Shown piece after piece: positions 23,468-30,646 of a stretch of DNA of 64,000 nucleotides. This stretch comes from Sulfitobacter aestuariivivens (GTDB taxonomy: Bacteria; Pseudomonadota; Alphaproteobacteria; Rhodobacterales; Rhodobacteraceae). The notes below the pieces were generated by a model, which ran no database searches, was not told the origin of the DNA, and saw only the letters and a list, made by a program, of their open reading frames with translations. How positions within the stretch are numbered: the first letter of the stretch is position 1; every line of letters begins with the position of its first letter. The DNA lies in the NCBI RefSeq assembly GCF_014763045.1, contig NZ_JACTAG010000001.1, forward strand, positions 1,426,001 through 1,490,000. Reading direction: 5' to 3'. Both the position numbers and the translations under genes were made by a program.

Positions 23468-26050
23468 CTACTTTCTGATATGGTCTTGGATGCATTTGGA
23501 AAGGGTGCCGTCATCAATCGGCTTGGTCAGGATCGGCGTGCTACGCAACTCGACGGGAAGTTCGACCTGTGATCCGTAGCCGGTCGCAAATGCGAAGGGG
23601 ATTCCGCGTTTTTTAAGCAACAACGCAATCTCGAAGGAAACGGTGCCGCGTAGATTCATGTCAAGAACAGCAAAGTCATAGTCGGTTTTCTGAGCCAATG
23701 CCAAACCTTGTGAAAGCGACGAGGCGGTCTCGACTGTCTCAGCCCCCAGGCGCGATATGCTTTCGACCATGTCCATCGCAAGCACGACGTTGTCTTCGAC
23801 CAAAAGAATGGATTTACCGCTTGCTGCTCTGTCTATGGTGGCCACTGTTCCCACAAGTTTTGAGGATGTTTCCTCATGAAGTTCGACCAGTACGTCAGAA
23901 GGCAGTCCAAAGGAAAACTTCAGGCCCGCCTCATCGAACTCAAGCTGCGCGTCGCCGTCCATCTCATAGGGAATAGCCTTTTCGATAAGTGATCGACCAA
24001 AGCCGTGCCGCGTGGGCTCCGCGACCCTGGGGCCATTGATTTCCTGCCAGTTGAACCGAAGTCGATCACCCTCCAGCGACCACTTCGCACGCACCACGCC
24101 GTCATCAACTGACAAGGCGCCATACTTTACGGCATTTGACACAACTTCATGGAGGACCAGCGCAATGATGGGTGCTACGTCGGCGCGCAACCCAACCAAG
24201 GGTCCCGCCAGCAATACCTGTGAGTTATCGGCGCTGAGGTACGGGGCGAGCTCTGTTTTCAGGATGCCGCGCAGTGATACGCCCTTCATGGTGTTTGACA
24301 CCGCGAGGTCGTGCGCTGCCGCGAGCGCCGCGATGCGCTGCTCAAGGGCCAGCGCGTAGCTTTCAAGCGATGCGGACGACGCCTTGGCCTGGCGCGACAG
24401 GGACCGGATCAGGGCGAGGATATTTTTGACGCGATGGTTAAGCTCCGCAATCATCAAATCCTGTTGCCGCTGATGGGTGACAAGATCCTTGTGGCGCATT
24501 AACTGCAGGCGTTCACCCTTGGCAGAGATCTGCGTCAGCAGGATTTGCACCTCCTGTGCCGCCGCCAGATCTGGCTCTTCCCACGGGTCGCTGGTGCCTC
24601 TGTGCTCTTCGACATAGGCATCGAAGGACCCACGCGGTGTAATTCGGGGGCCAAGAGGACCCGGCTCCATGGTCTTTTCCGGTTTTCCGGCCCAATCCAC
24701 ACTTCTGATCTTTTCGTCCCGGAAGAAGAACAGCTGCAACGGATAGGCGGCCGTCGCCCGCACCAGCAGTGCGCCCGCCGAATGCCCCAAATCCTCGCCG
24801 TTGATTAGGTTACACTGCGCAAGGTTAGACCAGGCGTTTACAACGTCTTCGTTGTCGATGTCGTGTTTGCTGATCGCATTGATGGCGTCGTCAGACGGGG
24901 TGCTGCCATGTGTGAGTGTCTTGCCGTCATACTTGATCGCAAGACCGTCGCAAGCGATCACGCTCATCAGGATTGGCGCGAGATTTGGGAACGAATTCAA
25001 CAGGTCGGTTGTCGCATCGGTCTCGGCCACAATCCGCTTACTTGCATCGGCAGCTTGATGGCGTCGCATCGATTTCTCGAGATCGATCCGTTGCTTGATC
25101 AGTAGCGAGATAATCAGACCGAACAATTCGGCTGCGATGCGAATGTCCGAAGAAACGATCTTTGGGCTTTCATGATGGCACGAGAACATCCCCCACAGCC
25201 GCCCCTCAACGACAAGACCGATCGTCATGGTTGCGGCCACGCCCATATTACTGAGGTACTCGACATGAATGGGTGAAATGCCGCGCAAATGGGCAAGAGA
25301 AATATCAAGCGGTGCGGCGTCTTTTTCATGAGAAAGGATCGCAATGGGCGTCTGGTTCACATCGACCAGCATCCGTACCGGGCACTTGACCTGCAGGGCG
25401 CGCGCTTGTTCGGGGACATCCCATGCTGGATAGCGCAGCCCCAGAAAGCTGGTGACATCTGGGCCGCGGCTCTCTGCCACGATCTGCCCGTCGCCGTTTG
25501 GCTCATACCGGTACGCCATGACACGGTCGAAACCGGTGAGTGCTGCCAATCCGACCACACACCTGTCCAATAACTTTGGAATGTCCTGGTTGGGATCTGT
25601 CGCCGCCAGGTATTTTTGCATCTCGTCGATGGCGGACTGTCCCGACCTGGGGTCATGGTCTTTCGCAGGTTCCAGCTCAACGACCGCCATGTGCTCAGGA
25701 TTGACATGCAGGTAAACTTCGAACGATCCCTGATCAATCGTATACAAACCGGCCCTTTGCCGCTGCTTCTTGATTGTGGACATGCTGGCGAGATTACGCA
25801 GATCGTGGACAAGTTGATGGCCAAGAATCTGTTTAAAGCTGTTCCCCAAAATGCCCTTGGGATCGGTATTCAGGTACTCTGTCGTGTTCTCGCTGCAATG
25901 GCTTATCGTCGATAGATTGGCTGGCCCGGCAAGAAGCACGCCAAAGGGCTGGATGCGACCCGGCGTATGGATCGGTTCAAGATCGCATGTGTTGAGATCA
26001 AAGTAGGTATCAGAATGGTTGGGAAAGTCTTCCATCAGAAGTGTATGCAC
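23468..26050 (-). CDS. bphP: Bacteriophytochrome hybrid sensor: PAS-GAF-PHY, HWE-type histidine kinase, receiver
   Basis: An 860-residue red/far-red photoreceptor kinase. Domains: PAS 18-125 with the biliverdin-attachment C22 in NTCDLEPIHTPGRIQPFG; GAF about 150-320 with the PAWDVPEQAR motif (D211) and conserved H262; PHY 330-510 with the tongue PRGSF at 472-476; HWE/HisKA_2 kinase with H539 in ELNHRVKNILAL and N-box HEVVSNAVKYGAL at 634-646; receiver 745-858 with D797 and K843. All key residues are present, so it should be functional. Start is uncertain between GTG 26050 and ATG 26035; neither has a strong ribosome binding site. No haem oxygenase gene is adjacent, so biliverdin must come from elsewhere. 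Confidence 0.93.
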   Translation of the reverse strand: MHTLLMEDFPNHSDTYFDLNTCDLEPIHTPGRIQPFGVLLAGPANLSTISHCSENTTEYLNTDPKGILGNSFKQILGHQLVHDLRNLASMSTIKKQRQRAGLYTIDQGSFEVYLHVNPEHMAVVELEPAKDHDPRSGQSAIDEMQKYLAATDPNQDIPKLLDRCVVGLAALTGFDRVMAYRYEPNGDGQIVAESRGPDVTSFLGLRYPAWDVPEQARALQVKCPVRMLVDVNQTPIAILSHEKDAAPLDISLAHLRGISPIHVEYLSNMGVAATMTIGLVVEGRLWGMFSCHHESPKIVSSDIRIAAELFGLIISLLIKQRIDLEKSMRRHQAADASKRIVAETDATTDLLNSFPNLAPILMSVIACDGLAIKYDGKTLTHGSTPSDDAINAISKHDIDNEDVVNAWSNLAQCNLINGEDLGHSAGALLVRATAAYPLQLFFFRDEKIRSVDWAGKPEKTMEPGPLGPRITPRGSFDAYVEEHRGTSDPWEEPDLAAAQEVQILLTQISAKGERLQLMRHKDLVTHQRQQDLMIAELNHRVKNILALIRSLSRQAKASSASLESYALALEQRIAALAAAHDLAVSNTMKGVSLRGILKTELAPYLSADNSQVLLAGPLVGLRADVAPIIALVLHEVVSNAVKYGALSVDDGVVRAKWSLEGDRLRFNWQEINGPRVAEPTRHGFGRSLIEKAIPYEMDGDAQLEFDEAGLKFSFGLPSDVLVELHEETSSKLVGTVATIDRAASGKSILLVEDNVVLAMDMVESISRLGAETVETASSLSQGLALAQKTDYDFAVLDMNLRGTVSFEIALLLKKRGIPFAFATGYGSQVELPVELRSTPILTKPIDDGTLSKCIQDHIRK

Positions 26051-26273: not shown

Positions 26274-26726
26274 TTAGTCCCCGGCAACAGCATGGATTGC
26301 TTCCAGTAATTGTGCAGGTTCATAAGGTTTTGCAAGTGAGACGGCATTCACCCCTTCGGGCATACCTCTGACAATACTGGACAGGATCACGACCCCCGGT
26401 TTCCGTGCATTTTTGGCAACAATGTTTTGGCTGATTTCCACAACGGTATGTTGAAGCATATGCACATCAATAATGATGCAATCAGGTGGGTTTGCGTCCT
26501 TCTTCTCCAAGGCCGAATAAAGCGAAAATTCGTCCCTGTAGGTCGACACGTCGATGTTCCAAGACTGCAAGATTGCAGCGATCGAACGGCAAGTATGCAT
26601 TTCCTTGGCAACCACAGCGACACACTTTACTGCGGCTTGATCTCTTGTTGACTTGGCGATGGAACCGCTCTTCTCTTGTATTTCCAGACAAGGCCACAAG
26701 GCCTCTGGATCACGGTACAACGCCAC
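26274..26726 (-). CDS. Stand-alone response-regulator receiver-like protein
   Basis: A 150-residue protein with an N-terminal extension of about 30 residues and a single receiver-like domain. The phospho-acceptor Asp is probably in CIIIDVHM, the Thr/Ser switch strand is GVVILSSI, and the Lys is in SLAKPYEP. The acidic pair normally found after beta-1 is replaced (CVAVVAKEM), so phosphorylation may be weak or absent. There is no output domain. Lying between a phytochrome kinase and a FixJ-like regulator, it may shuttle phosphate or act as a sink. Start is a GTG without a strong ribosome binding site, so the N-terminus is uncertain. Confidence 0.7.
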   Translation of the reverse strand: MALYRDPEALWPCLEIQEKSGSIAKSTRDQAAVKCVAVVAKEMHTCRSIAAILQSWNIDVSTYRDEFSLYSALEKKDANPPDCIIIDVHMLQHTVVEISQNIVAKNARKPGVVILSSIVRGMPEGVNAVSLAKPYEPAQLLEAIHAVAGD

Positions 26727-26771: not shown

Positions 26772-27377
26772 TTAGCCAGACGCTTGCTTGAGCCTGATAA
26801 GGTCTGCCAACCGATCTGCGCCCAGTTTTTCCCGCAACTTCTTGCGATGCACATCGACCGTTCTTGGGCTGATTTCAAGTTCACGCCCGATCGTTTTGTT
26901 TGTCTCACCCAAGACAACCAGTTCGAACACCTCGCGTTCGCGTTTGGTCAGCCGGTCAAGTCTTTCGTTTGCGGCGTCTCGGGTCATGCTGTTAGGGCCC
27001 GAAAACGGCCTGTACCGCAGCGAAAATTCGATGGATTCGGTCAGTTCGCCTTGCGTAAATGGCTTCTCGATCATGTCCGCAGCACCCGCCCTGATCGCTT
27101 TGACCGCCATCGGGATATCACCGTGCGCTGTGATGAAAACAATCGGGATAGAGATATCCCGATCAGACAGCTCTTTTTGAAGCTCAAGACCGCTGATGCC
27201 AGGCATACGGACATCCAGAACCAGACAGTCAATCCGGTCCAGGTCCGCCTCCTCCAGAAAGTGTTCTCCGGAAGGGTGCTGAGATGTTGCGTAACCGAGT
27301 GCTGAAAGCAGCACGGATGTCGACGCCAGCACGGATCTATCGTCATCGACGATTGCCACACATTTTCTAGTGCTCAT
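26772..27377 (-). CDS. FixJ/NarL-type response regulator (receiver + LuxR HTH)
   Basis: A 201-residue regulator. The receiver spans 1-120 with VAIVDDDRSV (acidic pair), phospho-Asp in CLVLDVRMPG, Thr in VFITAHGD and Lys in MIEKPFT. The LuxR-type HTH spans 140-200 (LTKREREVFELVVLGETNKT, then LEISPRTVDVHRKKLREKLG). This is the FixJ/TodT pattern. An ORF extension runs to 27596, but ATG 27377 is clearly the start: it overlaps the kinase stop by 11 bases and begins the receiver immediately. It is the natural partner of the FixL-like phytochrome kinase encoded directly upstream, which is now interrupted. Confidence 0.92.
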   Translation of the reverse strand: MSTRKCVAIVDDDRSVLASTSVLLSALGYATSQHPSGEHFLEEADLDRIDCLVLDVRMPGISGLELQKELSDRDISIPIVFITAHGDIPMAVKAIRAGAADMIEKPFTQGELTESIEFSLRYRPFSGPNSMTRDAANERLDRLTKREREVFELVVLGETNKTIGRELEISPRTVDVHRKKLREKLGADRLADLIRLKQASG

Positions 27378-29613
27378 TGCCCCCCTCCGTCTGACCAAGT
27401 GGGATAGCAAACGTGAAACGCGTGCCGTCGCCAATTTCTGCGGCCCAGATGCGACCGTGGTGATCTTCAATTGTCGATCGACAGAGTGACAGACCGATCC
27501 CCATGCCGTCCGACTTGCTGGTTCGGAAAGGCTCAAACAGGTAGGGTAGGATATTCGGGTCGATCCCGGCCCCGGTGTCCTCGATTGAAACCTCAAAATT
27601 CTCGTCGTCGGTAATCTTTGATGTCACTGCAAGTCGCCGCTCCTCCATCCCTTCCATCGCTTCGACGGCGTTTCTGACCAGGTTGAACACCACCTGTTCG
27701 ATCTGAACCTTGTCGGCATAGACCGACGGGGCGTCAGGGCTCAGATGAAGATCAAGGTGAACGCCACCTTGCCTGCTGCTGGTCAGCGCGAGCCTGACGG
27801 CCTGCTCAAGCATATCGTTGCCGTCAAATTCCAGCTTTCGTTCAAAGCCGGGTTTCATCAGGTTTCTAAGGTGGTGGACAATCTGACCCGCGCGTTGGGC
27901 TTCCGTCACAGCACTTTCCATCAGCTCAATCACGCTGTTCTTCTGATCCTCGTCAGGATTCTTGAGCAGAAGTTGAGACGCAGACACATAGTTGCTGATA
28001 GACGTCAGCGGCTGGTTGAGCTCGTGCGCGATTGCTGCCGCGAGCTCCCCAAGCGATGCAGACCGCGCCGTATTAAGAAGTTGGTTCCTGAGGTCCGTTT
28101 GCGCCCGTTCCATCAGGGACGCCGTATCCGCAAGCCGCTGCGCTTTTTTCGACGCAAGCAACGCTCTCAGAGACGGCAGCACAACCGAAAGCGCAAGGTG
28201 GTCGGTTTGGCTGAACGGCTTGCTTTTGGATGCGACGGTCTGTTCCCAACGGCTGAAAGAGGCACGCGGCTCCAGGATCGGCAGTCCGTCCTTGTCAAAT
28301 CCTACGGCCTTTTTTGGCGCGCCCGCCCAGGACACCACATTGTTGAAGCGTTTGCGCCCAAGCACCAGATAGTCATTGCGTTGTGCGTCAAGCGACAGGA
28401 AGGCGCATCCAACCAGGTCATCCCCCATGTTCTGACCAACAACCGCGCTGATATCATCGGTGATAAACACATCGTCATGCGTCTTTTGATGGAGCATCGA
28501 AAGATCGACCTCATCACCTGTCCAGTTGTCAAGCGAATGCCACACCCCGTCGATAAAGGCAGCCAAGGCATCAACCGCAAAATGGTGCGCCAGCTTGGCG
28601 GCCATATCCTGAAGCTCAAATGTTGGCGTTTCGGTATGCGCAAAGGAATAGGCCAGTTCCTGCGTGCGGATGATCTGCCGGTCGCGTTCAGCGCGCAGGA
28701 TGTTTTCCAGCAGAAGCTCTAGAACTTGCGAAGAAAGTTCTGCCGAATGCAGTTCTGTCGCGCTCAGCAGCTTCGGCGTGCTGTGGTGACATACCATCAG
28801 CCCCCAAAGCGTGTCGTCGACAACCAAGGGCAAAACAAGCGTTGCTGCCACCCCCATGTTGCGCAAGTACGTCAGATGTATCGGAGAGACCGCCCGCAGT
28901 TTTGAATAACTCAGATCAAGAGCGGCGCTTGGGACAAGTTGACTGATCGGTGCGTCCACATCTGCAATGATGCGAATGCGATTGAGAAGAAACTGCTTTC
29001 TTGCCGGTTCCGGAATATCAGACGCCGGGTAGTGCAGCCCGAGATAGCGGTCGGACAATTCGGTCTCTTCCGCGATCACTTCGCCGTGCCCGTCCGCGTG
29101 AAACCGATAACACATCACGCGGTCATAGCCTGTCTAACGCCGCAACATCCGCGTCGCGGCCGCCACAAATTCATCGACACTCTCAAGGGTCCGCAGTTCG
29201 CTGATGACATCCCGGCGGGCCTCTATCACGGAGTTCTGGGCTTCAAGATCGTGCAGAAAGAGCTCTACGAAGAATTGTCCATCATCCCGATAGATCTGCG
29301 AGAAAAGCTTTGAGGTTTTGCCGTCAGATCGTTTCACAACAAGTGAGGTCGGTCGCGCCAGTATCTCGCCGGGCCGTTCGGGCGCGTCAACAAGAGCGCT
29401 GTCTATCGATTGCTGTTGGATCAGTATGTCAATCGGTTGTCCAAGCAGGGCATCGATCTGCCATCCAAGTGCCGCGTCCACGTTGTCACTGACGTGCGTG
29501 ATCTTCCGCGTTGCACTGTTCATCACAATCAGTCAACCGAAGGTCTGTATCGCGCCAATCAGGTGCAATTGCTCTTTGTCACAGTTTGTTCTGTCGGGTG
29601 GCGAGTACGTCAT
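27367..29613 (-). pseudogene. Bacteriophytochrome with FixL-like histidine kinase, interrupted by two in-frame stops
   Basis: Read from ATG 29613, a single frame of 748 codons encodes PAS (C11 in TNCDKEQLHLIGAIQTFG), GAF (TGYDRVMCYRFHADG; PASDIPEPAR), PHY with tongue PRASF, then a HisKA/HATPase kinase (H about 530 in AAAIAHELNQPLTSISNY, ATP-lid GMGIGLSLCRS). The frame holds TGA at codon 27 (29533-29535) and TAG at codon 160 (29134-29136), the latter between RMLRR and TGYDRV where relatives have a sense codon. No frameshift is needed. The PAS attachment motif has also drifted from the usual PIHIPG. Internal starts could make a truncated PHY-kinase, but chromophore binding is lost. A sequencing error is possible at one stop, less so at both. 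Confidence 0.85.
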
Positions 29614-29647: not shown

Positions 29648-29662
29648 ACCTATCATATAGGT
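29648..29662. promoter_or_regulatory. Inverted repeat upstream of the interrupted phytochrome gene
   Basis: ACCTAT (29648-29653) and ATAGGT (29657-29662) form a perfect 6-bp inverted repeat around CAT, 35-49 bp upstream of the phytochrome ATG. A half-site ACCTAT recurs at 26206-26211 upstream of the intact phytochrome. Could be an operator for a local regulator such as the Crp/Fnr protein; that is inference. Confidence 0.4.
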
Positions 29663-29875
29663 AATAAACACTTAGTCCCGAGAAAGCCATCCGCAACGAG
29701 AAAATGGGTTATTGAGCGACGGGTTGAGTGAATAAGCGTTTATTATCAGACGGTACAGTCATTTCCGAACCTCTGCCGGCGTTATGAGGATCAAAGAACA
29801 GCACGCACATTTCGACGGTTCGTTAGGTACTCGACGCCAATCGCCGGGCCGCCTTGCTTCTCGTAAATTAGGGTC

Positions 29876-30646
29876 ATGAAAAGGCATATCGAGGCCCCAG
29901 TGACGCCCGGACCAGAAACATCTCGTGAGACCCGCCAAGCGCCGGGCGCGGAAGATATCGTGATCACAAGGGGGCCGCGCGCAAGGCAGACGCCCGATGT
30001 TTCGCCGCTGTACCGCTTGGCGCAAAAGGACCGGGACTGGCTTCTGAGCCAGCAGCACGTCCGGCGCATCCTGATCGATGGCGAAAACCTGAACACCATC
30101 CAGAATGCGTCGGGGATGGTTTATCTGATCGAAACCGGCTGGCTGGCAGAATGCGAGTTCCTGCGGAATGGCCGCCGGCAGATCCTTGATTTCTACCTGC
30201 CGGGCGATCTGATCGTGTCCTCGGACAAATTCTCCGATCTGCGGGGAAGATGCATCGAATCCATCGGGCCCGCCTCCGTTCTGGTGTTTGATGTCTCTGC
30301 GGCGCAGCCTGACCCGCGACTGGAGAACATCGAAAAGCAGGTTTTGACCTTGCGGGCAGAGGCGTTTGGCAACCTCCTCGTCAACGTCGGGCGCAGAAGT
30401 GCAATGTCACGTCTGGCCCATTTCCTGCTGCGCACTGACGCAAAACTGCGCGTGCGACCTGATGGAGATGAGAGCATCACCGTACCCTCTTTCGTGACCC
30501 AATCGGACATTGCTGATCACCTTGGCATCTCAACCGTTCACACCAACAAAACACTGGCCAAACTCCGGCAAGCGGGCTTCGTCTCTCAACCTGGTCAGGC
30601 GATAGCGCTCCTCTCTCGCGAGCGCTTGGAACAACTGCGCGAATGA
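29876..30646 (+). CDS. Crp/Fnr family transcriptional regulator
   Basis: A 256-residue regulator. A non-conserved N-terminal extension of about 40 residues precedes a cyclic-nucleotide-binding-type beta barrel (NASGMVYLIETGWLAECEFL, RQILDFYLPGDLIVSS). The C-terminal winged HTH is clear (VPSFVTQSDIADHLGISTVH, NKTLAKLRQAGFV). The four-cysteine [4Fe-4S] ligand set of Fnr is absent, and the cAMP-binding Arg/Ser pair of Crp is not evident, so the signal is unknown. It is divergent from the phytochrome pseudogene, with 262 bp between starts. Such Crp-like proteins are frequent neighbours of alphaproteobacterial phytochromes. Confidence 0.88.
   Translation: MKRHIEAPVTPGPETSRETRQAPGAEDIVITRGPRARQTPDVSPLYRLAQKDRDWLLSQQHVRRILIDGENLNTIQNASGMVYLIETGWLAECEFLRNGRRQILDFYLPGDLIVSSDKFSDLRGRCIESIGPASVLVFDVSAAQPDPRLENIEKQVLTLRAEAFGNLLVNVGRRSAMSRLAHFLLRTDAKLRVRPDGDESITVPSFVTQSDIADHLGISTVHTNKTLAKLRQAGFVSQPGQAIALLSRERLEQLRE

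Follow-up and report, generated by a model that had tools for sequence, protein, structure and literature searches.

The window analysed here, a stretch of 64,000 nucleotides from contig NZ_JACTAG010000001.1 of Sulfitobacter aestuariivivens, contains a broken gene for a bacteriophytochrome-FixL-type histidine kinase on the minus strand (27367..29613), identified by translation, Pfam and comparison with relatives, with the domain order PAS-GAF-PHY-HisKA-HATPase_c. Translation from 29613 to 27367 gives one frame of 748 codons, which is closed by a terminal TAG and is interrupted at two places only, by TGA at codon 27 (29533..29535, minus strand) and by TAG at codon 160 (29134..29136, minus strand), the latter directly before the GAF segment TGYDRVMCYRF. 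At equal base frequency about 35 stops would be expected at random in 748 codons (3/64, calculated by hand). The stops delimit two open stretches of the ORF list on the minus strand. Between them lie 130 codons from GTG 29526 (29134..29526), whose putative product is a PAS_2 piece, and past the TAG lie 583 codons from a GTG (27367..29118), whose putative product comprises most of GAF, PHY, and the FixL-type kinase. In Pfam searches, PAS_2 was found in 29532-29137 (E 8.7e-5) and GAF, PHY, HisKA, and HATPase_c in 29118-27370 (E 1.5e-8 to 1.9e-24), and the phytochrome likeness of the 26 codons 5' of the TGA was recognised by alignment only. The phytochrome-FixL frame interrupted at codons 27 and 160, which had been proposed from the letters of the stretch, is thus borne out by translation and by Pfam matches on both sides of the TAG.

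The photosensory core is present in the window in pieces (PAS_2, GAF, and PHY) and complete in the orthologue of G229, a genome of the same family but of another genus. Cys11 ahead of the PAS domain, presumably the biliverdin-binding cysteine of bacteriophytochromes, is kept in 6 of 6 aligned sequences. This chromophore cysteine can be seen by eye in the window frame, as in bacteriophytochrome histidine kinases, and so can the DIP and PRxSF segments, which we take to be named phytochrome motifs. An intact receptor of this kind would be expected to bind biliverdin and to be photochromic. A bacteriophytochrome has an uninterrupted whole-receptor reading frame, and in the window this frame is interrupted. 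The original prediction had also taken drift of the biliverdin PAS motif as a sign of loss. This part did not hold: the window reads IQTFG, but the motif of the intact G229 orthologue has drifted as well (IQPIG), and the two other phytochromes found in the genome have IQPFG and VQAYG. Because the intact orthologue and both other phytochromes vary too, the drift says nothing on decay.

Among solved structures, the kinase part best matches chimeras with a FixL kinase (4gcz, E 2.1e-52). Its top NCBIfam match is NF041777 (FixL) with 206.3 bits over residues 341-577, the cut-off for the full-length protein being 850. The haem-binding PAS oxygen sensor is absent from the kinase; since its place is taken by a phytochrome core, the kinase is FixL-like and not a FixL. 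Its end is overlapped by an intact gene for a FixJ-type response regulator of 201 aa (26772..27377, minus strand), which has GGAGG six bases before its ATG. This regulator consists of a receiver and a LuxR/GerE DNA-binding part (Response_reg and GerE in Pfam), has NF006900 (FixJ) as its top NCBIfam match with 199.5 bits, under the curated cut-off of 255, and is 64% identical to the G229 copy over 195 residues. It is followed by a small receiver-like protein (26274..26726, minus strand; with 27.8 bits it narrowly misses the Pfam cut-off of 30.2), whose counterpart in G229 also comes after fixJ (31% identity over 99 residues). Further along lies an intact bacteriophytochrome of 860 aa with PAS-GAF-PHY, an HWE kinase, and a receiver (23468..26050, minus strand; ORF list and Pfam). 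The FixJ-like partner and the intact adjacent phytochrome that had been predicted are therefore both present with intact frames. On the other side of the kinase, a divergent regulator of the Crp/Fnr family (29876..30646, plus strand) is weakly FixK-like (HTH_Crp_2 53.8 bits; NF050806 47.2 bits, cut-off 300) and has a divergent counterpart in G229 with 33% identity over 177 residues. The NCBIfam scores of the FixL-, FixJ-, and FixK-like genes are all below the curated equivalog cut-offs.

The intergenic region that separates the FixK-like gene from the broken kinase contains the perfect palindrome ACCTATCATATAGGT (29648..29662, no strand assigned) 5' of the kinase, which is a possible regulator site. 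The pattern ACCTATCATATAGGT was picked after the site had been seen; with up to two mismatches it matches once in the window, where 0.31 matches are expected, and at least one match occurred in 24 of 100 shuffles. A shorter palindrome core with one mismatch has four matches in the examined G229 stretch, L085 (1.53 expected), two of them 5' of the kinase. The same intergenic region of the window has an inverted repeat of 16 bases at 29662-29745, 88% complementary and 52 bases apart.

In G229, the syntenic frame is free of stops over 782 codons and is 59% identical to the 583-residue part of the window frame. The gene order, with a divergent Crp/Fnr-type gene, the kinase, FixJ, and the small receiver protein, is that of the window. 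Genes resembling pqqB, pqqC, and pqqE by eye lie 3' of the cluster in G229 (L085 11327-14329), where the window has the phytochrome with the HWE kinase. Comparison with the orthologous locus in relatives, which had been proposed as a check, thus found the syntenic G229 locus intact and the FixL-type phytochrome without stops in all five relatives compared (G229, G474, G477, G487, and G558), with open frames of 766-796 codons. In three of the four more distant ones (G474, G477, and G487) a FixJ-type gene follows the FixL-type phytochrome, and in G558 both are on the same examined stretch. As in a pseudogene, the window copy carries disabling mutations relative to intact orthologues, namely two stops. 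Compared with the intact G229 frame, it has protein gaps of just 1-3 residues, the N-terminal end excepted, and no frameshift. Neither stop codon hits a position that is invariant in the alignment with the five relatives: opposite codon 27, G229 has Cys and the four other relatives have Ala, and opposite codon 160, G229 has Thr and the four others have Val.

Within the genus, matches that reach at least E 1e-30 occur in 6 of 62 genomes (the window's own included), and besides the window's own genome only G474 and G477 exceed 200 bits. Such a patchy occurrence makes a loss of the gene unsurprising. Among the matches listed from overlapping draws of 60, 394, 62, 21, 390, and 395 genomes, no relative besides G229 had the same locus; the cut-offs were E 1e-3, 1e-30, or 1e-90 depending on the draw, and in some draws the best 3 to 5 candidates per genome were scored. 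A scan of named genomes gave 11 loci with 27-33% identity, and a plasmid search gave 896 records, all below 60% identity, the 20 listed reaching at most 31%.

These comparisons bear on two explanations in which the strain would still make the full receptor. A sequencing or assembly error in an intact gene would agree with the sound appearance of the remainder of the frame. It would have to produce two stops 399 bases apart without any indel, although the assembly consists of 14 contigs with a completeness rating of 99.99%, and it is regarded as quite improbable. Even harder to credit is a readthrough of both stops with the TGA decoded as selenocysteine. The TGA does stand opposite a cysteine in G229 and in two phytochromes that are more distant, but a further recoding would be required at the TAG, codon 27 corresponds to Ala in four other relatives, and the five relatives have no stop at either place. 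Selenocysteine at the TGA, considered for the sake of the G229 Cys, was rejected as unlikely: when 150 of 559 first-look candidates in the genome were scored, nine tRNA-Sec matches were obtained, all below the cut-off (best 46.4 versus 47 bits), and ARAGORN assigned all nine places to ordinary tRNAs.

The age of the break was approached through the amount of change in the window copy. Relative-rate counts (window versus G229) with four outgroups were 13 and 15, 15 and 17, 17 and 16, and 11 and 22 for the N-terminal part, and 31 and 36, 34 and 33, 32 and 34, and 32 and 33 for the C-terminal part, so that in neither part does the window copy have an excess of substitutions over G229. In a leave-one-out comparison, the window differs at 19 of the 204 sites at which the other five sequences all agree, and G229 at 23 of 208. 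The outgroups differ at 5 to 10 of 190 to 195 such sites, a low count because they are closer kin to each other. The codon-position GC of the broken gene is ordinary and resembles that of the neighbouring phytochrome. Decay of the N-terminal part, considered on account of the identity between window and G229 (37% in the N part versus 60% in the C part), was dropped, as the N part changes faster among the outgroups too. The six outgroup pairs have 58-66% identity in the N part versus 69-75% in the C part, the N part is the less conserved in 15 of 15 pairs compared, and its identity to the outgroups is 28-33% for the window and 26-30% for G229. The lack of excess change indicates either that the break is recent relative to the split from G229 or that the C-terminal part is still under constraint.

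In a neutral simulation, a median of 59 point mutations (5-95%: 13-164) had accumulated when the second stop appeared, with a median of 11 missense changes (5-95%: 2-33) at the 204 invariant sites. The 19 changes observed neither require nor exclude such neutral decay by the second stop. The chance of having no indel by then was 0.12, 0.04, and 0.01 for 5, 10, and 20 indels per 100 substitutions, respectively, in what is a simple simulation whose result depends on the assumed indel rate. The absence of a frameshift is thus mildly unexpected under plain decay and accords with either a recent break or retention of the C-terminal ORF. The two stops are confined to codons 1-160 of 748, the first 21% of the gene, a placement with a chance probability of about 0.046 (calculated by hand); this test and that on frameshifts are post hoc and weak. 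Taken together, stop placement and the missing frameshift lean mildly to a C-terminal part that is still constrained.

This leads to the explanation that an internal restart, for example at 29118 or 29115, yields a GAF-PHY-FixL-type kinase of ~583 residues, blind to light but still acting on FixJ. In addition to the stop placement, it is in keeping with codons past the TAG that are open and without excess change and with two in-frame GTG-ATG pairs, one 3 codons past the TGA and another 6 codons past the TAG. The second pair, however, encodes a Val-Met common to all eight aligned sequences and thus needs no other reason, and the product would lack the first part of GAF as well as the chromophore cysteine. 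When in-frame starts were scanned over the first 900 bases, 29118 and 29115 matched AGGAGG at 3 of 6 positions; the normal start itself matches at only 4 of 6 and is equalled by GTG 29079, TTG 29058, and ATG 28797. Shine-Dalgarno matches do not decide between loss and an internal start. We judge a retained kinase of this type to be unlikely, though the most serious competitor of a loss. Slightly more doubtful still is its full consequence, that the 583-codon ORF is translated as a light-blind, biliverdin-free kinase and that the stops have thereby converted a pair responding to light into a regulator of FixJ that is independent of light.

Reaction-centre genes (PF00124) were found in six of the six genomes searched, which comprise that of the window and the five with an intact FixL-type phytochrome, and given their presence it is reasonable to suppose that the intact system would regulate photosynthesis genes by light. 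In three of the five relatives (L086, L087, and L113; G474 C61, G477 C12, and G558 C8) the reaction-centre genes are on the same contig as the FixL-type phytochrome, about 27-34 kb away, and in the same three a recognised haem oxygenase gene adjoins this phytochrome upstream. A Pfam search for haem oxygenase gave no match in the window's genome, but it exceeded the cut-off in only 3 of 20 genomes, and in G229, G443, and G321 oxygenase-like genes that lie next to phytochromes score below the Pfam cut-off (E 0.59 to 0.82). An argument from missing biliverdin supply was therefore dropped. The third phytochrome of the genome, on contig C7, adjoins a gene for 192 aa (L090 10326-10904) that is 40% identical over 171 residues to the one in G229 and about 40% identical to its counterparts beside phytochromes in G229 and G443. 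Neither Pfam (at E 0.1) nor NCBIfam (at E 0.01) has a model that matches this gene, and the standard models may miss this haem-oxygenase-like group. As the third phytochrome adjoins a gene resembling the oxygenase-like genes beside other phytochromes, biliverdin supply in the window's genome is plausible. Altogether, three bacteriophytochromes were found in the genome, namely the broken one, its neighbour with the HWE kinase, and that on contig C7, and not two red-light inputs as had been assumed.

In the intact receptor, PAS-GAF-PHY would bind biliverdin and sense red/far-red light. The FixL-type kinase part would then phosphorylate FixJ, the product of the gene directly downstream, whose targets may include the divergent FixK-like gene. 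This route from light to FixJ to FixK is drawn from what is known of the FixL, FixJ, and FixK families. In the strain of the window, translation from the normal start would end after 26 residues at the TGA, and the full receptor would not be made. FixJ should still be producible, as its frame is intact and GGAGG precedes its own ATG, and it would be without its cognate light input. A stop so early in the first gene might lower expression of the genes behind it, and other kinases, or the 583-codon ORF, could still act on FixJ.

We consider the locus to be a recently nonsense-inactivated bacteriophytochrome-FixL-type sensor kinase beside an intact FixJ gene, with a probability of roughly 80% as judged from the sequence comparisons. 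Most likely, a photosynthetic bacterium has here undergone an ordinary recent loss of one of the three red-light inputs found in its genome. The original prediction is partly supported: given the intact G229 gene and the lack of stops in the five relatives, a lost red-light input with the FixJ gene left intact, and perhaps functionally orphaned, is the best reading, but the input is one of three and motif drift is no sign of decay. The broken kinase points to no new mechanism. Its presumed recent loss makes the control of the FixJ gene that remains intact a subject for study, and it serves as a warning that an isolate chosen for sequencing may no longer have a given light response, as described for Rhodopseudomonas palustris CGA009 in the excerpts of PMC6899989. 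The excerpts of PMC6199135, PMC5069747, PMC2890560, and PMC6932827 contain no report of a broken phytochrome.

The window shares a FixL-type kinase core, a FixJ-type regulator, and a weakly FixK-like neighbour with the oxygen-sensing FixL-FixJ(-FixK) cascade, but has a phytochrome core in place of the haem-PAS oxygen sensor. With bacteriophytochrome histidine kinases (for example PDB 8u4x and 9eut, compared by sequence) the interrupted kinase gene shares, besides the motifs named above, the order PAS-GAF-PHY-HisKA-HATPase_c. It differs from them in a kinase part that is closest to FixL among solved structures, in the adjacent FixJ-type regulator, and in being broken. A precedent is bphP1 of R. 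palustris CGA009, which according to the excerpts of PMC6899989 is frame-shifted, with an intact copy in another strain and the downstream partner remaining. The output of RpBphP1 is of the PAS9/HOS type, and its target is the repressor PpsR2 (PMC6899989, excerpts). Thus, as far as these excerpts go, both are bacteriophytochrome genes of a phototroph that are broken in one strain and intact elsewhere with the partner kept, but in CGA009 a frameshift affects a route from PAS9/HOS to PpsR2, whereas in the window two stops affect a presumed route from a FixL-type kinase to FixJ. The window case is another example of bacteriophytochrome loss, in a different output class from that of CGA009 bphP1.
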